Origin: Pseudomonadota bacterium
GTDB taxonomy: Bacteria; Pseudomonadota; Gammaproteobacteria; Burkholderiales; Burkholderiaceae_F
Reading direction: 5' to 3'
NCBI GenBank assembly: GCA_029778535.1
Contig: JAKOQB010000002.1
Location: forward strand, 124,001 to 188,000
DNA: 64,000 nucleotides
Shown here: one piece after another, positions 36,496-47,602 of the stretch
Position numbering within the stretch: the first letter of the stretch is position 1
Layout: every line of letters starts with the position of its first letter
Notes under the pieces: generated by a model
Told to the model about the DNA's origin: nothing
Databases searched by the model: none
The model's input: only the letters and a program-made list of their open reading frames with translations
Translations under genes and position numbers: made by a program

Positions 36496-37479
36496 TCAGC
36501 GCTTCTGCAGTGCCGCCTCGATTGCGTTCAGCCGGCTTTCGAGCGCGCGGATCTGGTTGTTCAGCGCGCCGACGTTGACGAACACCTCGTTTTCCGCCGG
36601 CGCCGACAGCGCCGCCGCGTAGCCGAGCCACGACGAGTCGTACAGCTTGACCTTGCTGAATCCCAGATCCGCGAGCACAGCGGCGGTCTCCGCCGCGCGC
36701 ACGCCGCTCTGGCAGTAGACGATCGTCTCCTTGTTCGGATCGAGCGCCGCATACAGCTTGCGCAGTTCGTCGCGCGGCTTCAGCTGCATGCCCGACGAAT
36801 CCTTCAGCTGGCCGCGCCGCATCTTGCCGATCGCATCCGGATCGAGCCAGTTCTGCTCGTACGGAATGTTGATCGCGCCGGGGATGTGGCCGCCGCGGAT
36901 CGCGCGGATGTCCTCGCCCTTGAATTCCTTCGGCGTGCGCGCATCGACGATCTGCACGTTCGGGTTGCGCACCGAGGCGATCACCGCCTTCGTGTCGACC
37001 GTCAGCCCAGGCACCGGCACGAGCTTCAGCGCCACCGGTTTCGGCGCCGTCGGCTCGGTCGCCACCTTTTCGCCCGCGGCGCGCCAGCCGTCGATGCCGT
37101 CGTGAAACACGTACGCCTTCTGCGCGCCGAAGTAGCGCAGCGTGAACTGCGCGAAGTACGCGCTCGACGCGCCGCGCTGCGCATAGACGACCACCTCGCG
37201 CTGCGGATCGAGCCCGGCGCTGCCCAGGATCTTCTCCAGTTGCGGCAGCGGCAGGTAGTCCTCGGTGTTGGGGTCGCGCAGCTCGTCGGTCGGCGCGCCG
37301 ATGTTCACCGCACCGGGGATGTGCCCCTTGGCGAACGAGCCCTCGTCGCGCGCGTCCCACAGCACGGCTCCGCGCGCCAACGCCGCCTTCACGTATGCCG
37401 CGTCGACGATCTGCTGCGCCCAGGCGGGCGACGCGAACACGATCACGGCCGCGATCGCGGCCAGCCAGGTTCTCTTCAT
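36496..37479 (-). CDS. Exported two-domain rhodanese (sulfurtransferase)
   Basis: 327 residues from ATG 37479 with GGAG upstream. A signal peptide (WLAAIAAVIVFASPAWAQ) sends it to the periplasm. Two rhodanese domains follow. The first has VVYAQRGASS where the active Cys should be, so it is inactive. The second has IVYCQSGVRAAET with the catalytic Cys. LWDARDEGSFAKGHIPGAVN and IVDARTPKEFKGEDIRAIRG are the domain entry motifs. A short coiled-coil-like C-terminus ends the protein (LNNQIRALESRLNAIEA). It probably moves sulfane sulfur from thiosulfate to an acceptor, near the other periplasmic sulfur genes of this region. Confidence 0.88.
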   Translation of the reverse strand: MKRTWLAAIAAVIVFASPAWAQQIVDAAYVKAALARGAVLWDARDEGSFAKGHIPGAVNIGAPTDELRDPNTEDYLPLPQLEKILGSAGLDPQREVVVYAQRGASSAYFAQFTLRYFGAQKAYVFHDGIDGWRAAGEKVATEPTAPKPVALKLVPVPGLTVDTKAVIASVRNPNVQIVDARTPKEFKGEDIRAIRGGHIPGAINIPYEQNWLDPDAIGKMRRGQLKDSSGMQLKPRDELRKLYAALDPNKETIVYCQSGVRAAETAAVLADLGFSKVKLYDSSWLGYAAALSAPAENEVFVNVGALNNQIRALESRLNAIEAALQKR

Positions 37480-37707
37480 TGCGGGTCTCCTGCAGACGGT
37501 TGTTGTCAGGATGCCAGCCGGCGGGCCGGCGACCGTGAAGTGCGTTACACGACACGGTCGCGCGATTATCGGCCGAGTCACAGGGCGTCGGCCAGCGATG
37601 TGCCGATGCCGACCGAGTTGCGCGGCGCGTCGTCGTCGATCGGTCGCGTGCCGCCGCCGGAAAGCGCTGCAAGCAATCGCCGCAACGGGCGGTTGCGCCA
37701 GCGCGCA

Positions 37708-39102: not shown

Positions 39103-39219
39103 GAGTAAGTCGCGGGGGTGTTGATCCCGTTGATCCCCGGCAACCGTGCCAGCCGCCCGGCGCCTAAGTTCACAGGCGTACGGTTCTCAGAGACAACTCA
39201 ACCTGAAAAGAGACCACTG

Positions 39220-40506
39220 ATGACAACGAGAAAGCTCAAGATCGCGGCCGCGGTTGCGGCATTGCTCGTGCCGGCGCTGGCCGGCGCCACCAACGGCTAC
39301 CTGCCGCACGGTTATGGCATGAAGGCGCTGGGCATGGCCGGCGCCGGCATCGCGTATCCGCAGGATGCGATTGCCGGGGCGATCAATCCGGCCGGGATGG
39401 CGATGATCGGCAACCGCATCGACTTCGGCCTGAACTGGTTCCGGCCGACGCGCGAATCCGAAATCGCCGGCAATTGCTTCAACCCGCCGAGCTGCACCGC
39501 GAACGCCAACGGCACGTACAACGGCAACAAGGAAAGCGATTTCTTCATCCCTGAGTTCGGCTACAACATGATGCTGAATCCGAACGTCTCCCTCGGCGTC
39601 TCGGTGTTCGGCAACGGCGGCATGAACACGTCGTACAAGACGCCGGTGCCGCTGTTCGGCACCAGCAATCCCGGCGTGGATCTGATGCAGCTCTTCATCA
39701 CGCCCACCGTCGGCTACAAGATCAATCCGCAGCACGCGATCGGGCTCGGCGTGAACCTTGCATATCAACGCTTCAAGGCGCACGGGCTGGAGAACTTCAC
39801 AGCGCCCAGCGGCCCGCAGCAATTCTCCGCATTCCCCGGCAACGTGACCAACCAGGGCTATGACAATTCATACGGCGCCGGCGTGCGCGTCGGCTATCTG
39901 GGCCAGCTCACGCCGCAGTTCTCGCTCGGTCTGACCTACCAGACCAAGACGAGCATGAGCAAGTTCGACAAGTACAAGGGACTGTTCGCCGAGGAAGGCG
40001 GCTTCGACATCCCGGCCAATTACGGCATCGGCGTCGCGTTCAAGCCCACGCCCGCGTTCAACGTCGCGCTCGACGTGGTGAAGATCGAATACTCCGGCAT
40101 CAGGTCGATCAACAATCCGCTGCTGCCGAACCTGTTCCAGGCGCAGCTTGGAACACCCGGCGGCGCAGGGTTCGCGTGGAAGGACATCACCGTGGTCAAG
40201 CTCGGCGCCGACTGGGCGATGCGGCCCGACCTGACGCTGCGTGCCGGCTATAACCGCGGTGACCAGCCGATCCCGAAGAGCGACACGCTGTTCAACATCC
40301 TCGCGCCCGGCGTGATGGAGGACCACTACACGCTCGGCGCGACCTGGACCATGCCGAGCAAGTCGGAGCTGACGTTCGCGTTCATGTACGCGCCGACGGT
40401 GAAGGTCAACGGATCGGGCTCGATCCCGGCGCCGTTCGGCGGCGGCGAAGTGAATGTGAGGATGCGGCAGATCGAGTTCGGCGTCGGCTACGGCTGGAAG
40501 TTCTGA
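39220..40506 (+). CDS. FadL/OmpP1/TodX family outer-membrane channel
   Basis: 428 residues from ATG 39220. The frame is open 34 codons further upstream, but the signal peptide begins at this ATG (KLKIAAAVAALLVPALAGAT). The mature protein begins NGYLPHGYGMKALGMAGAGI; the NGY/GxxxxxMGGA-type opening and N-terminal plug are typical of FadL. It ends with an outer-membrane signature, VGYGWKF, the C-terminal Phe being needed for barrel assembly. These channels import hydrophobic compounds such as fatty acids and aromatics. A strong terminator follows 18 bases after the stop. Confidence 0.92.
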   Translation: MTTRKLKIAAAVAALLVPALAGATNGYLPHGYGMKALGMAGAGIAYPQDAIAGAINPAGMAMIGNRIDFGLNWFRPTRESEIAGNCFNPPSCTANANGTYNGNKESDFFIPEFGYNMMLNPNVSLGVSVFGNGGMNTSYKTPVPLFGTSNPGVDLMQLFITPTVGYKINPQHAIGLGVNLAYQRFKAHGLENFTAPSGPQQFSAFPGNVTNQGYDNSYGAGVRVGYLGQLTPQFSLGLTYQTKTSMSKFDKYKGLFAEEGGFDIPANYGIGVAFKPTPAFNVALDVVKIEYSGIRSINNPLLPNLFQAQLGTPGGAGFAWKDITVVKLGADWAMRPDLTLRAGYNRGDQPIPKSDTLFNILAPGVMEDHYTLGATWTMPSKSELTFAFMYAPTVKVNGSGSIPAPFGGGEVNVRMRQIEFGVGYGWKF

Positions 40507-40922: not shown

Positions 40923-41519
40923 CTATTGCGGGCGCAAATGGCTGAACTTGCGCTCGGTCCACTCGGCCCCGGCAAAGGCGGCGAGCGCCAGCACGACCAC
41001 GCCGAGCACGACCGCGCCGTACGGGATGCCGAACAGTTGCGGCAGCGTCAGTTCGCCGACGCTATGGGCGTTGGCCCACAGTTCCCACGACGGCAGCGCG
41101 ATCGCGTAGACCGCCAGCCCGGCGACGAACCCGGCCATGTAGGTCAGGCCGTCGCCGCTGCCGGTCGCGGTCGCGGTGACCGACGTGCCGGGGCAGAAGC
41201 CGCCAAGGATGAAGCCCGCGCCCAGCAGCAGCCCGCCGAACAATTGCGCGCCGAAGCTGGTCGGCGTCACGTACACGTAGGACAGGTCGAGCCAGCCGAT
41301 CGCGGAGAACAGCCACAGCCCGACGGCGGTCGTGACGATCGCGGTGAACATCACCTTCAGCACCGTCATGTCGTACAGGTAGAACTGTGCGGCGAGCTTG
41401 CGCGCGCTGGAAAAGCCGGCGCGCTCGAGAATCCAGCCGAAGCCGAAGCCGAGCACGAGCGCGGTGACAAGGCCCTGCGAATCGGTGATCAGGTCGAAGC
41501 CATACAGTGGCAGGTTCAT
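40923..41519 (-). CDS. YeeE/YedE family membrane protein (second of pair)
   Basis: 198 residues from ATG 41519, whose ATGA overlaps the preceding gene. It has about five hydrophobic segments. The family motif is GGFCPGTSVTATATG, in which the Cys is thought to pass thiosulfate-derived sulfur through the membrane. VLGFGFGWILERAGFSSARK is also typical. YeeE/TsuA proteins import thiosulfate; the two half-size proteins here together match one full YeeE. The operon neighbours rhodanese and molybdoenzyme genes, supporting a sulfur role. Confidence 0.88.
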   Translation of the reverse strand: MNLPLYGFDLITDSQGLVTALVLGFGFGWILERAGFSSARKLAAQFYLYDMTVLKVMFTAIVTTAVGLWLFSAIGWLDLSYVYVTPTSFGAQLFGGLLLGAGFILGGFCPGTSVTATATGSGDGLTYMAGFVAGLAVYAIALPSWELWANAHSVGELTLPQLFGIPYGAVVLGVVVLALAAFAGAEWTERKFSHLRPQ

Positions 41520-42076
41520 CGCCATAGCCTCCGCACGAAGTACGCCAGCAGGTAGCCGCCGGCAAAGACCGACAGCATGAACACCCAGCTGCCGGCATTC
41601 AGTTGCGATCCGCCCGTCAGCGCCTGCCCGCTGGTGCAGCCCTTGGCAAGCTTGGCGCCGATCGCCGCCAGCAGCCCGCCGCTGAATGCGAACAGCAGCC
41701 GCAGGCGGATCGACACGTTCGGCCCGCGCTCGATGCGCCACTGCGCGCGCTTCGCGAGCAGCGACGAGGCGAGCGCGCCGACGAACGCGCCGATCAGAAG
41801 GTACAGTGTCCAGTTGGTCGCCGGCGGATCGGCGAAGTAGCCCCTCAGCGCGGGGTTGGCCGCGGTCCAGTCGGGCGCGATCGCGCCGAACGCCGCGGCC
41901 AGCAGCGAGCCGTAGCCGGCAGTGGCGCCGAGGCCGCGGCCCATGATCAGGAACGTCGCCAGCAGCACGAGGCCGAGCGCGAAGCCGGCCAGATACGGAT
42001 TCATCAGTGCGCGCCGGCCCGCGACAGGCGCGTGCTCGACGCGTTTGTCGGGCGATGCGATGGAAGCGGCGCTCAT
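41516..42076 (-). CDS. YeeE/YedE family membrane protein (first of pair)
   Basis: 186 residues from ATG 42076, with GAGGAG five bases before. It has four or five transmembrane segments and the motif AKGCTSGQALTGGSQL, the Cys-containing sulfur-transfer loop of YeeE proteins. FAGGYLLAYFVRRLWR ends the chain. The pair of half-size proteins probably assembles into a thiosulfate or sulfur-compound transporter. A CRP-type palindrome lies 59 bases upstream of the start. Confidence 0.88.
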   Translation of the reverse strand: MSAASIASPDKRVEHAPVAGRRALMNPYLAGFALGLVLLATFLIMGRGLGATAGYGSLLAAAFGAIAPDWTAANPALRGYFADPPATNWTLYLLIGAFVGALASSLLAKRAQWRIERGPNVSIRLRLLFAFSGGLLAAIGAKLAKGCTSGQALTGGSQLNAGSWVFMLSVFAGGYLLAYFVRRLWR

Positions 42077-42209: not shown

Positions 42210-43580
42210 CTACTGTTTCGCCGCCGTCACCTTGAACGAGCCGTCCTTGGCGATCTCGATCTCGGCGTTCAGGAAACCGGCCTTGTAACCGGCGTCCTTC
42301 AGCTTGTGATACGCCATCTCGGCGCGGATGCCGGTCGAGCAGTGCGCGATGACGCGCTTGTCCTTCGGCACTTCCTTGATACGGGCCAGCAGGTCCTCGT
42401 CCGGGATCAGCAGCGCGCCCTTGATCATGCCGGCGTTGGCCTCGTCCTGATTGCGCACGTCGAGGATCAGCACGTCGGCCGGCGTAGCGCGCGCGAGCTT
42501 GCTGAACTCGTCGACGGAGATCGACCCGGGCCGCGGCTTCGGCGCATACGCGACCTTGGCCAGTGCGGGCACGCCGGATTCGATCGCGTACCCCGCCGCC
42601 TGCCAGCCGAGCAGACCCTTCTCCATCACCTGCACGTTCTTCTGGCCCGCCTTGATCAACTGGCGCGCGACCGCGACCGAATCGGCTCCGCCGCGGCCGT
42701 CATAGACGATGATCGGCGCATTCAGCGCGGGATCCGGGAAGGTCTTCAGGTTCTTCTTCACGTCCGCCGGCGGCATGCCGACCGCACCCTTGATGTGCCC
42801 GCTCGCGCTTTCGTCCCTGGAGCGCACGTCGAGAATGACGGCCGGGATGTCCTTGTCGAGATACGCTTCCTTGACGAACTCGGGCCGCGTGGCGAGATAG
42901 TCCTTCGTCTGCCATTCGGGCACGCCCTCGTGATAGACCTTGGTGTTCTTGTATCCGAGCGCGATCGCCTTGCGCTGTGACAGCGGGCTCATCTGGCAGG
43001 TCACCCCCTGGCAGAAGAACACCAGCAGCGTGTTCTTGTCGGCCGGCAGCCGGTTGAACACCTTGTCCCACGCCGGGTACGGCACGTTGATCGCGCCCGG
43101 GATCGTGCCCTGCTGAAAGCGCGGCAGCGGGCGCGAATCGATCAGCACCGCGTTGCCGGTCCCCTGATCGACGAGCTTCTTCACGAACGCGTAATCGACC
43201 AGATCCTCCTTCGCGACCTTGACCGGGCCCTTGAAGCGGATCTCGGATGCCCACTTCTGGCCGTCCTTCTCGACATAGGCGATCCGGACTTCGTGGCCCT
43301 TGCGGGCGTCGCGCATGAACTCCGGCTGCTTCGCCGCGCCGGCGTCGAGCACCTTCAGCGTCTTCTCGTCGAAGCGGACGATCTCCTTGTTCGCGTCGAT
43401 GCCGAGCTGGATCGACTGCGATTTGAAGGCGACGTTCTCGAAGTAGCCGGCGACGACACCCGCCTCCGGCTTGTGGCAGTTGTTGCAGACCGCCGGCTGG
43501 CTCGGCTTGGCGGCCGGCGCCTGCGCGGCCGCGCCGAACGCGGCAACGATCAGCGCCGTGGCGATGAATGCGGTTTTCAT
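42210..43580 (-). CDS. Exported protein with CxxCH haem motif and three rhodanese domains
   Basis: 456 residues from ATG 43580. A signal peptide (FIATALIVAAFGAAAQ) precedes a haem-attachment motif CNNCH (Cys32, Cys35, His36). Three rhodanese-like domains follow. The first has FFCQGVTCQMS with an active Cys near residue 190, the second has IIVYDGRGGADS with Asp in place of Cys and is inactive, and the third has IAHCSTGIRAEMA with an active Cys. It is the last gene of the PsrABC-like operon, 23 bases after psrC. It may carry sulfane sulfur to or from the periplasmic molybdoenzyme and hold one c-type haem. Haem binding is inferred from the motif alone. Confidence 0.88.
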   Translation of the reverse strand: MKTAFIATALIVAAFGAAAQAPAAKPSQPAVCNNCHKPEAGVVAGYFENVAFKSQSIQLGIDANKEIVRFDEKTLKVLDAGAAKQPEFMRDARKGHEVRIAYVEKDGQKWASEIRFKGPVKVAKEDLVDYAFVKKLVDQGTGNAVLIDSRPLPRFQQGTIPGAINVPYPAWDKVFNRLPADKNTLLVFFCQGVTCQMSPLSQRKAIALGYKNTKVYHEGVPEWQTKDYLATRPEFVKEAYLDKDIPAVILDVRSRDESASGHIKGAVGMPPADVKKNLKTFPDPALNAPIIVYDGRGGADSVAVARQLIKAGQKNVQVMEKGLLGWQAAGYAIESGVPALAKVAYAPKPRPGSISVDEFSKLARATPADVLILDVRNQDEANAGMIKGALLIPDEDLLARIKEVPKDKRVIAHCSTGIRAEMAYHKLKDAGYKAGFLNAEIEIAKDGSFKVTAAKQ

Positions 43581-43603: not shown

Positions 43604-44656
43604 TCACTGACCCATTCCGATCAGCGGAAGAAACGAACTGGCCTGTCCCGCGTCGACCAGGATCCAGCGCAACGCGAAGCCGCCGACGAGCACCAGCAGC
43701 GCCGGCGCGACGGTGTGCGCAATGCGATGCCTCAATTCGAGCGCCTGCAGTGCGAACGGCACCACGATGCCAAGCCCGACGACCAGACCCCAGAACGGCC
43801 ACGCGTACGGCCCGCTCAGCAGCAGCGCGGCGGCGTTCTGATGAGCCGCGGTGGTCGACACGAGGCCGATCAGCAGCAGCGCGATCAGCGCGAATTCCGT
43901 GGCGAGGAAGATCTGGTCGAAGCGCACCAGCGACACCGCGCTTGCCTTCGGCGGCGGCTCGGGCGTCAGCGGCTGCAGCAGCGCGGAGAACGCGCCGGCG
44001 ATCATGCCTGCCGGGGCGGGCCGCTTGACCGGCACCACGACGGTCAGCAGGTGCATCAGCGCGCACGCGGCCGACAGTCCCGACACGAGGAACAGCGGGC
44101 CCAGCAGCGCGGAGTTCCACAGCGGCCGCGCGACCATCGTGCTCAACAGGATGCCGGTGTAGATGCCGAGCGCCACGCCGAAGCCGATGTTCAGCGCCGC
44201 GATCAGCCGCAGCCAACCCGGCCGCGCGAGCAGCCAGCGCGAGGCGGCGCCGACCCGCGGCACCTTGCGGCCGAGCCAGGGCCACGCCTCGTCGAGCCGG
44301 ATCAGCGCGGACGCCGCGACCACGCCATAGACGAGGATCAGCACCCAAGAGCCCCACGACATCGGAGAGGTAGGCTCGAAGGTCAGGTACACGCGCCACA
44401 CGTAAAGCTTGTGCGCGAGGTCGAGGAACAGCGCGCCCATGCCGAGGTTGATCAGCACGAACGCGAGGATCGGCGCCTGCACCGCGTAGGTGTCGCGCGT
44501 GTCGCCGCGCGCTACCTTCAGCATCTGGTAGCCGGCCAGCACCATCATGCCGGCGACCAGGCCGCCGAGAAACAGATAAACGGGGATCTCCCAGCTCCAG
44601 ACGTGCAGGCGCGGGTCGATCAGCGGGTTGTGGCGGGTGGTGGTGATCTCGAGCAT
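43604..44656 (-). CDS. psrC: NrfD/PsrC-type membrane quinone-reactive subunit
   Basis: 350 residues with nine or so transmembrane segments. WSWEIPVYLFLGGLVAGMMV at the N-terminus is the NrfD signature. It anchors the molybdoenzyme and iron-sulfur subunits at the outer face of the inner membrane and exchanges electrons with quinone. It starts 19 bases after the psrB stop. The name psrC is used for family resemblance; whether the complex works as reductase or oxidase is not decided. Confidence 0.88.
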   Translation of the reverse strand: MLEITTTRHNPLIDPRLHVWSWEIPVYLFLGGLVAGMMVLAGYQMLKVARGDTRDTYAVQAPILAFVLINLGMGALFLDLAHKLYVWRVYLTFEPTSPMSWGSWVLILVYGVVAASALIRLDEAWPWLGRKVPRVGAASRWLLARPGWLRLIAALNIGFGVALGIYTGILLSTMVARPLWNSALLGPLFLVSGLSAACALMHLLTVVVPVKRPAPAGMIAGAFSALLQPLTPEPPPKASAVSLVRFDQIFLATEFALIALLLIGLVSTTAAHQNAAALLLSGPYAWPFWGLVVGLGIVVPFALQALELRHRIAHTVAPALLVLVGGFALRWILVDAGQASSFLPLIGMGQ

Positions 44657-44675: not shown

Positions 44676-45215
44676 CTACGTCAGGTAGAAGACGCGCGGC
44701 TTCGTGCCGGCTTCGGGTGCGAGCGTGTGCCAGCGGCGCGTGCGCAGCAGCGTGGCCACGGTGCTCTTCGGGTCGTCGAGGTCGCCGAAGTGCATGCAGC
44801 GCGTCGGGCACACCGACACGCACGCCGGGTCCTTGCCCTCCTTCACCCGGTGCAGGCAGAACGAGCACTTGTCGACATAGCCGTCGGGGTGCACGTAGCG
44901 CGCGCCGTACGGGCACGCGGCGATGCACGCCTTGCAGCCGATGCAGCGGTTTGCGGTGACCTGCACCGTCCGGCCGAGCGGCTCGACGTGGCTGGCGCCG
45001 GTCGGGCAGCACGCCACGCACGGCGGGTTGTCGCAGTGGTTGCAGCGCTCGCTGCGGATCTCGAGCGCGAGCTTCGGAAACTCGCCGCGCACTTCGGTCG
45101 TGATCCAGTCGCGGCAGTAGCCGATGGGGACGTCGTTCTCCGCCTGGCAGGCGACCACGCAGTCGGCGCAGCCGACGCACAGGCGGGTGTCGATGACCAT
45201 TCCGTAGCGCGCCAT
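44676..45215 (-). CDS. psrB: 4Fe-4S ferredoxin-type electron-transfer subunit (PsrB-like)
   Basis: 179 residues. Four cysteine clusters are visible: CVGCADCVVAC, CNHCDNPPCVACC, CIGCKACIAACPYGAR, and CSFC with CVSVCPT. These match the four [4Fe-4S] sites of PsrB/DmsB/NrfC subunits. It carries electrons between the molybdoenzyme and the membrane subunit. There is no signal peptide, so it should be co-exported with the Tat-dependent catalytic subunit. Two bases separate it from psrA. Confidence 0.92.
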   Translation of the reverse strand: MARYGMVIDTRLCVGCADCVVACQAENDVPIGYCRDWITTEVRGEFPKLALEIRSERCNHCDNPPCVACCPTGASHVEPLGRTVQVTANRCIGCKACIAACPYGARYVHPDGYVDKCSFCLHRVKEGKDPACVSVCPTRCMHFGDLDDPKSTVATLLRTRRWHTLAPEAGTKPRVFYLT

Positions 45216-45217
45216 GG

Positions 45218-47476
45218 TCAGCTCCCCACTCGCTTGTCAGCCGCCGCGACTTGCGGAATCGTTCCACTTGGGCCGACCAGCGTGACGAAGTTGGTGTGGA
45301 TGCTGGTGCCGCCCATCAGCGGATCGATCTTCACGCGCGTGGAAAGCTGCGCCGTGCTCGCGCCCTTGTGATAGGCGGCCTTCCACGCCTTCGATTCGCT
45401 GCCGAAGCCGTGCACCATGTACACGCACTCGGGGCGGATGCGTTCGGTCACCAGCACCGCGACCGGACCGCTCTCGACGCCGTCCTGGTTGCGCAGCTTC
45501 ACGCGCGCGCCGTTGGCGATGCCAAGCTTGCGAGCCTCGGCGGGGTGCAGCCAGACCTTGTTCTCCGGCATCAGCTGCGCGACGCGTTGATTGCCGATCG
45601 TGCGGCTGAACGTGTGCATCGGCGCGCGCCCGCTGAGCAGCCGATACGTGCCCGGCGGCCCCGCCTCGGGCCGCGTGTATTTCGGCACCGGATCGAACCC
45701 CTTGTCCGCGAGCTGCTGTGACCAGAACTCGACCTTGCCCGACGGCGTGTCGTAACTGACCTCGGCGCCGTCGTCGACGTAGATCGGCGGCTGCTTGCCG
45801 GTCAGAATGCCTTTCGCCTTCAGCTCGGCCCAGTCGAATCCGCCGGCGGTGACGCGCGTGCGCAGGTACTCTTCGATGTCCGTCCACGGGAAGTACGCTT
45901 CCACGCCGAGCCGCTTGCCCAACTCGCGCCCGATCCACCAGCCCGGCTTCTGCTGGTGCGGCGGCTCCACGACCGGCTGGCGCAGCGCGATGAAGGGCGT
46001 GCGCAACGCATCGTCGTTCAGCGTGTCATAGCGTTCAAGATACACCGCCTCCGGCAGAACGACGTCGGCATAGCCGGCGATCTCGCTCGGCACCGTGTCG
46101 ATCACCAGCAGGAAGTCGAGCGCATCGATCGCCGCGAGCGTGCGCTTGCGATCGGGCATCGACTGCAGCAGGTTGGTCGCGTCGACCACCCACGCCTTCA
46201 GCGGATACGGTTTTCCGGTGATCGTCGCTTCGCGCAGCCCGGTCGTGACCGTCTGGTCGGCGAACGGCCAGCGCTTGGCAGCCGGGTCGCCGTTATCGGC
46301 CTTGCCCTTGGGCGACTTCGGATACTTCGGCACGCCCGGATACTCTGCGAGCCCGATATAGCCCGGCAGGTAGAAGCCGCCCTTGCGGCCCCAGTTGCCC
46401 ATCAGCGCATTGAGCAGCGCGACCGCGCGGGCGCGCTGCGCGTCGTCGCCGTGCCACGTGGTGCGGCGGCCGGGATGAATCAGCGTGGCCGGCCGCGTGC
46501 GCGCCATTTCGCGCGCGCTGGCCCGGATCAGTTCCGCGTCGACGCCGACCTCGGCCGCGGCCCATTCGGGCGTCTTGTCGGCGATTTCGGCGCTGAACTT
46601 GTCGAAGCCGGTGCCGTACTTGCCGACGTATTCGCGGTCATACAGCCCCTCGCGCACGATCACGTTCATCCATGCCAAGAGCAGCGCGATGTCGGTGCCG
46701 GGTTTGACCGGCAGCCAGTACCTGGCCTTGCTCGCGGCGGTCGAGTAGCGCGGGTCGACGACGATGATCGTCGCGTCGGCGCGGATCGCGTCGGCGAACT
46801 CCTGCACCTGCGAGTTGTGCATGTTCTCGCCCAGGTGCGTGCCGATCAGCACCAGCGTCTTCGCGTTGGCGATATCCGTGTTCTCCGGCGTGCCGGGGTT
46901 GGTGCCGAACGTCAGGTTGAAGCCCACATCGCGCGGCCCGCGGCACTGCGCGAACGACGGCGCCGCCGCGTTCGGCGTGCCGAATGCCTTCAGCGCATGT
47001 TCGACGAAATAGGCGCCGATGCCGTGCTTGAAGAGCGCGATCGTCTCCGGCCCATGCCGCGCGGCCAGCTTCTTCAGGCGCTCCGCGGTGTAGTCCAGTG
47101 CCTCGTCCCACGTCGCCGTCTTCCACTGCTCGGCGCCGCGATTGCCGGTGCGGATCAGCGGCGTGCGCAGCCGGTATTTGTCCTCGACCATGCCGATGCC
47201 GGCGGTGCCGCGCGTGCACAGCCGCCCGCGCGACAGCGGATCGAGCGGATTGCCTTCGAGCTTCCACAGCTTGCCGTCGCGCACGGTGGCGATCAGGCCG
47301 CACTTCCAGAAGCACACGTCGCAGGTGGTGGCCACCGTGCGGATGCCTTTTTCGCCTGCCGCCTTGTCCGAAGTGCAGCCGAGTTGCGTGCCGGCCGCGG
47401 CGGCGCCGAACGTGGCCGCGGTGATCTTCAGGAAACGGCGGCGGGAAAGCGTGGGAGGGGAAAGGGAAACGACCAT
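45218..47476 (-). CDS. psrA: Periplasmic molybdopterin oxidoreductase, PsrA/PhsA-like
   Basis: 752 residues from ATG 47476; the frame extends upstream without support. A Tat signal is present (SRRRFLKITAATFGAAAAGT). The N-terminal cluster motif is CDVCFWKCGL with a fourth Cys in GRLCTRGT. Molybdopterin-binding segments include FNLTFGTNPGTPENTD, HPGRRTTWHGDD and the C-terminal MPENKVWLHPAEARKLGI. It belongs to the DMSO reductase family, near polysulfide/thiosulfate reductases. The nearby rhodaneses and YeeE genes support a sulfur substrate. Polysulfide, thiosulfate or tetrathionate cannot be told apart from sequence. Confidence 0.9.
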   Translation of the reverse strand: MVVSLSPPTLSRRRFLKITAATFGAAAAGTQLGCTSDKAAGEKGIRTVATTCDVCFWKCGLIATVRDGKLWKLEGNPLDPLSRGRLCTRGTAGIGMVEDKYRLRTPLIRTGNRGAEQWKTATWDEALDYTAERLKKLAARHGPETIALFKHGIGAYFVEHALKAFGTPNAAAPSFAQCRGPRDVGFNLTFGTNPGTPENTDIANAKTLVLIGTHLGENMHNSQVQEFADAIRADATIIVVDPRYSTAASKARYWLPVKPGTDIALLLAWMNVIVREGLYDREYVGKYGTGFDKFSAEIADKTPEWAAAEVGVDAELIRASAREMARTRPATLIHPGRRTTWHGDDAQRARAVALLNALMGNWGRKGGFYLPGYIGLAEYPGVPKYPKSPKGKADNGDPAAKRWPFADQTVTTGLREATITGKPYPLKAWVVDATNLLQSMPDRKRTLAAIDALDFLLVIDTVPSEIAGYADVVLPEAVYLERYDTLNDDALRTPFIALRQPVVEPPHQQKPGWWIGRELGKRLGVEAYFPWTDIEEYLRTRVTAGGFDWAELKAKGILTGKQPPIYVDDGAEVSYDTPSGKVEFWSQQLADKGFDPVPKYTRPEAGPPGTYRLLSGRAPMHTFSRTIGNQRVAQLMPENKVWLHPAEARKLGIANGARVKLRNQDGVESGPVAVLVTERIRPECVYMVHGFGSESKAWKAAYHKGASTAQLSTRVKIDPLMGGTSIHTNFVTLVGPSGTIPQVAAADKRVGS

Positions 47477-47602
47477 GACGGAGAGCCATCTCGTTGCATC
47501 GCCGTCATTGCATACCGGCGCGCGCGCGCCCTCTTGCGGTGCATCAAGCAAGTCTGCGACGCGTGCGCGTTATGCGAACCACGTCACAGAGCGGCCGCGA
47601 TG

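Follow-up and report, generated by a model that had tools for sequence, protein, structure and literature searches.

The window analysed here, a 64,000-nucleotide stretch of a Burkholderiales contig, encodes on its minus strand a 456-aa triple-rhodanese protein with a CxxCH motif, here called RHD3 (42210..43580). The reading frame opens at an ATG (43578-43580) closely preceded by a Shine-Dalgarno-like AGGGGG stretch, and runs for 456 codons to a TAG stop. Its product begins with a signal peptide, MKTAFIATALIVAAFGAAAQA (approximately residues 1-20; 43521..43580), for which cleavage near AQA was judged by eye. A CNNCH motif (residues 32-36; 43473..43487) opens the N-terminal domain (residues 32-118; 43227..43487), and three Pfam rhodanese stretches follow (total E 2.8e-44). 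The first, R1 (residues 127-230; 42891..43202), carries the loop CQGVTC with C190 and C195 (42996..43013). The second, R2 (residues 243-336; 42573..42854), has no Cys and bears Asp294 at the catalytic position (VYDGRGG); the third, R3 (residues 352-438; 42267..42527), has the active-type loop CSTGIR with C414. The CNNCH after a signal peptide and the three rhodaneses, the middle one with Asp for Cys, are thus all present as the first-pass annotation had described them.

The gene lies directly after psrC, as also stated there, at a distance of 23 nt. Reading upstream on the same minus strand, psrC encodes an NrfD-family membrane subunit (43604..44656; PF03916, 2.5e-38), psrB a 4Fe-4S electron-transfer subunit (44676..45215), and psrA a molybdopterin catalytic subunit (45218..47551) whose true start is probably an internal Met of the open reading frame. 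The psrA product has a Tat motif (SRRRFLK), scores 678.6 bits against Thermus thermophilus PsrA (PDB 2vpw), and reaches 502.5 bits with the PhsA equivalog model, under its cut-off of 694; it is nearest to PsrA/PhsA, not to YnfE or ArrA. A Tat-motif Mo subunit, an Fe-S subunit and an NrfD subunit together give the operon the composition of PsrABC, as in T. thermophilus. Unlike that system, it is accompanied by a rhodanese-barrel partner and a YeeE pair, and most of the host genomes also carry Sox and Dsr.

Beyond RHD3, two YeeE/YedE-family (Sulf_transp) halves lie on the minus strand, half 1 at 41516..42076 and half 2 at 40923..41516 (start approximate). As genes they resemble YedE1E2/PmpAB, likewise two adjoining half-size Sulf_transp proteins beside sulfur genes, and YedE1E2 has been reported as a zero-valent sulfur importer (PMC10812762). 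A FadL/TodX-type outer-membrane channel on the plus strand (39118..40506), which recurs beside psrABC-yeeE clusters, is a possible route for hydrophobic sulfur. Farther along, on the minus strand, is a second exported tandem rhodanese, SseA-like, with CQSGVR in its domain 2 (36496..37581); it recurs near psrABC/RHD3 in five other loci.

A genome scan recovered RHD3 orthologues at 29 loci: 20 betaproteobacterial, 8 from Nitrospirota and 1 labelled Deltaproteobacteria, with L006 and one 'Pseudomonadota' locus counted as betaproteobacterial by tree position. The alignment comprises 28 full-length sequences whose identity to the window protein is 48-79%; it omits L013 and L030, whose MAG copies contain frameshifts. 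C32, C35, H36, K53, C190, C195 (as Cys or UGA), D294 and C414 are the same in every one of these 28 sequences, whereas the signal peptide and the leader ahead of CxxCH differ freely from one to another. Because the reactive residues are fixed while the leader drifts, the conservation goes beyond chance. The first-pass annotation had made its haem-motif reading depend on conservation of CxxCH, and the motif is retained in 29/29 orthologues, together with the fusion itself; the one variant is CxxxCH. This is a Rubrivivax MAG orthologue (L008:7977-8297) with CTAACH, where an assembly error is possible. A remote member at 39% identity keeps CATCH, the Lys and the R1 Cys pair, and has no D294. In several MAGs (L013, L030, L033, L055, L065) RHD3 or psrA is interrupted by frameshifts or scattered stops, which are read as assembly errors or decay. 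One further locus (L037, G050:C31) encodes an exported protein of 414 aa with three rhodaneses, of which two have CGGxEC and one CGTGAR; it lacks CxxCH and by its sequence is possibly a related CX4C carrier. No description of a CxxCH barrel and three rhodaneses on one chain was found in the open-access papers searched. RHD3 is a real, conserved, rare and apparently undescribed multi-domain rhodanese variant.

In classical tandem rhodaneses, such as bovine TST and SseA, the first domain is inactive and has Asp at the Cys site. The R2-R3 portion matches tandem rhodaneses of known structure in both sequence and fold searches, and combines an invariant D294 in R2 with an invariant C414 in R3. It shares with TST/SseA, YnjE and Pseudomonas aeruginosa 1yt8 the succession of an inactive domain and an active CxTGxR domain. 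The Asp-for-Cys middle domain, presented at first as an oddity, turns out to be the ordinary tandem-rhodanese layout. What sets RHD3 apart from the classical proteins is the added R1, with its CX4C or CX4Sec loop, and the N-terminal CxxCH barrel; its novelty lies in these two modules and not in the Cys-less R2.

The R1 loop differs between lineages. Nine RHD3 orthologues (L017, L021, L023, L024, L026, L027, L028, L029 and L031) carry a single in-frame UGA (for example at L017:8610-8612), which alignment with the Cys homologues places exactly at the C195 position. Their loop reads C-A/G-G-x-T-UGA-A-M/L-S-P, and the remainder of R1, R2 and R3 continue beyond it with normal conservation. The nine forms, eight from Nitrospirota and the one labelled Deltaproteobacteria, make up one clade in the tree (support 100/100). 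Since the RHD3 genes of L026 and L029 themselves terminate in UGA, this codon is not generally reassigned. A SECIS-like hairpin with a stem of 6-7 bp lies 15-33 nt downstream of the UGA, separated from it by 14-15 nt, in 9/9 UGA forms and is missing from the Cys forms. Across the nine sequences 95% of its stem cells are paired; by itself the hairpin counts for a modest amount, with p 0.03-0.21 for the individual genes against synonymous-codon controls and a single compensatory change. SelB exceeds its cut-off in 8/9 UGA-form genomes. It is also found in 8 of the 21 entries for genomes with the Cys form, the window's own genome among them and one genome being entered twice, so SelB alone does not separate the two forms. 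No tRNA-Sec was found within ~5 kb of selB, the sole region searched. Other in-frame stops were considered as selenocysteine sites, in L033 (inside the RHD3 signal peptide) and in L055, L064, L065 (PsrA); none falls at a conserved Cys, which suggests misassembly or upstream sequence.

From the alignment and its genomic setting, it is very probable that UGA at the C195 position encodes selenocysteine in the nine orthologues, and this probable selenocysteine is the strongest redox evidence for RHD3. A prokaryotic selenoprotein list of 2026 contains the rhodanese forms UxxS, UxxG, CxU and TsoB UxxxxU; a CX4U rhodanese form and the RHD3 architecture are absent from it (PMC13188914). Among the close known relations is TsoB, a rhodanese/DsbD-like selenoprotein (NF045694), whose rhodanese part is matched by R1 at 76.3 bits and whose UxxxxU motif has the same spacing as CX4U. 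RHD3 nevertheless differs from TsoB: its score is far under the NF045694 cut-off of 805, it has no DsbD part, and it has one Sec where TsoB has two.

No Pfam family fits the N-terminal CxxCH domain, and no cytochrome family came above threshold in the profile search. Comparison of the whole RHD3 model with the PDB gave only rhodanese-type folds among the matches listed, and the N-terminal domain was therefore folded alone. The AlphaFold2 model, built from 29 sequences, is a confidently predicted OB-type barrel (pLDDT 91.6, pTM 0.83). The solved folds closest to it are OB-type barrels, CusF among them (Foldseek E 7.2e-4), with Z up to 7.7 and rmsd 2.4 over 66 residues against CusF-like folds, where Z <8 can be a mere common arrangement; cytochromes are absent among the matches listed in the fold searches. 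The model thus points to an OB-type barrel rather than a cytochrome c fold. Lys53, Gln58, Phe70 and Glu97 are invariant in the domain. There is no invariant His or Met in residues 37-118 of the 28 aligned orthologues; a ligand from another domain is possible. The domain was not seen outside the RHD3 fusion, as only 2/369 class genomes match it and both matches are RHD3 itself.

Whether this barrel holds a haem bears on the electron-handling role claimed in the first-pass annotation. Measured against c-type cytochromes, RHD3 has export and CxxCH (one CxxxCH) and lacks a conserved distal His or Met in the domain. With a predicted OB-barrel fold and no conserved His/Met ligand, haem binding is only putative, and so is the claim that the protein handles electrons by way of haem. 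As a candidate site, the barrel may possibly carry covalent haem c, at about even odds. One explicit form of this view makes the domain a true mono-haem c, in which Lys53, or else a partner residue, serves as the distal ligand, and RHD3 a cytochrome-rhodanese moving both electrons and sulfur. The CxxCH behind a signal peptide, invariant in full-length orthologues and kept even in the remote member, the invariant Lys53 and the cytochrome c assembly genes in 14/14 genomes tested all speak for it. The predicted OB-barrel fold, the lack of a conserved His or Met and of any cytochrome family above threshold, and the CxxxCH of L008 weigh against it, and it can be held only tentatively, with the odds leaning slightly to the other side. 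That same CxxxCH spacing, and best structural neighbours that are CusF-type periplasmic metal chaperones, suit a different account, in which CxxCH serves as a disulfide or as a metal site, and the barrel works within a thiol relay as an adaptor for redox chemistry or metal binding. Here it is the invariant His36, unneeded by a plain CxxC disulfide, and the lack of conserved Met/His of the kind used by CusF that are hard to accommodate, and the Z score may mean a common fold only; this account is conceivable, though it falls short of being probable.

In Betaproteobacteria RHD3 keeps company with psrABC. The operon adjoins it in 14/20 loci, with differing gene order and orientation, and YeeE-family genes are near RHD3 in 12 of these 14. 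Five of the other six genomes have PsrA elsewhere (62-63% identity), four of these five with the YeeE pair in view. Among 61 relatives, PsrA (E <= 1e-90) is found in 5/5 of those that have RHD3 and in 1/56 of those that lack it, the single exception being a contig-end fragment in a genome that is 77% complete. A Fisher calculation by hand gives ~1e-6, for related genomes whose counts are not independent. The Nitrospirota genes are free-standing in the loci read; no PsrA at E <= 1e-90 was found in Nitrospirota RHD3 genomes, and the L031 genome contains a PsrA of 39% identity. RHD3 is therefore not solely a Psr accessory. The expectation that the fusion would recur beside psrABC elsewhere accordingly holds for Betaproteobacteria and fails for Nitrospirota. 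RHD3 also stands free in one betaproteobacterial clade, and these solitary genes are what would be expected if the protein served sulfide or persulfide detoxification or envelope thiol repair, the psrABC linkage being incidental. Against this, PsrA co-occurs in Betaproteobacteria even when unlinked, which makes such a role unlikely.

The wider sulfur background is less discriminating. SoxB is present in 16/18 betaproteobacterial RHD3 genomes tested and in 0/7 of the Nitrospirota type, and DsrA in 19/25 RHD3 genomes tested (in the genome of the window it is divided between two contigs). Among close relatives, DsrA occurs in 2/5 genomes with RHD3 and 10/56 without; this weak tie marks Psr as the specific partner and Dsr as a background trait. 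Rhodaneses are known to occur beside oxyanion reductases, and the neighbouring second tandem rhodanese shows a weak match to ExtH (28.9 bits, cut-off 200), so RHD3 might serve selenium or other oxyanion chemistry with the Psr-like enzyme as a selenite/selenate-type reductase. The affinity of the catalytic subunit to PsrA/PhsA, the presence of Sox and Dsr in the genomes and the sulfur-transport-family neighbours all point away from this, and Sec within the protein is uninformative on substrate. Such a function appears very unlikely.

A precedent for the association exists in Wolinella succinogenes, where Sud, a periplasmic rhodanese, is thought to bring polysulfide sulfur to the PsrABC enzyme. 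RHD3 is likewise a periplasmic rhodanese linked with PsrABC, in Betaproteobacteria only; Sud is single-domain and without CxxCH, whereas RHD3 has three rhodanese domains and the barrel. As judged from sequence, the favoured reading (probability roughly 0.55) is that RHD3 is a periplasmic sulfane-sulfur (polysulfide/persulfide) carrier and exchange protein with a redox R1, serving PsrABC in Sox/Dsr-bearing Betaproteobacteria. Where RHD3 travels with psrABC, the best reading is thus still the one first put forward, that it works with the molybdoenzyme as a sulfur carrier in the periplasm.

In the proposed mechanism, R3 would carry a persulfide on C414, as in ordinary tandem rhodaneses, and R2 would be an inactive scaffold. 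R1 would be a redox-active CX4C/CX4Sec site where polysulfide is opened or persulfide exchanged by way of a disulfide or a selenenylsulfide, and the CxxCH barrel would act as a third redox or docking module. In Betaproteobacteria, RHD3 would exchange sulfur with PsrABC, in one direction or the other, on the outward-facing side of the membrane, and the neighbouring YeeE pair may be a further recipient; import of sulfur carried in this way would be reasonable, since the pair resembles YedE1E2.

PsrABC is classically a quinol-dependent reductase, and Betaproteobacteria usually use ubiquinone, which would make the oxidative direction energetically easier in those that bear Sox and Dsr. In such hosts, sulfane-sulfur oxidation that delivers electrons to the quinone pool is no less plausible than polysulfide respiration. 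A bolder scheme unites three elements in a single polypeptide: a rhodanese of the CX4C/CX4Sec type, a tandem rhodanese that carries persulfide, and an OB-type barrel with covalently bound haem. Sulfur transfer would then be coupled to electron transfer to or from a PsrABC-type molybdoenzyme, and the Nitrospirota selenoprotein version would work with another partner. Such a protein would represent a new class of redox sulfurtransferases in the periplasm, and the scheme is doubtful.

Periplasmic sulfane-sulfur handling is poorly defined in bacteria with Sox, Dsr and Psr-type enzymes, and RHD3, as a conserved and tightly co-occurring carrier, offers a concrete test case. Its CxxCH barrel is a test of haem c attachment outside known cytochrome folds. 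Selenocysteine at one R1 loop position in one lineage marks a probable redox site, and single Cys variants could test whether CX4C rhodanese loops perform redox chemistry or plain sulfur transfer. In one lineage RHD3 is probably the functional partner of a Psr-type enzyme, in another it is probably a selenoprotein, and its Nitrospirota selenocysteine form suggests an unusual redox-active sulfur carrier.
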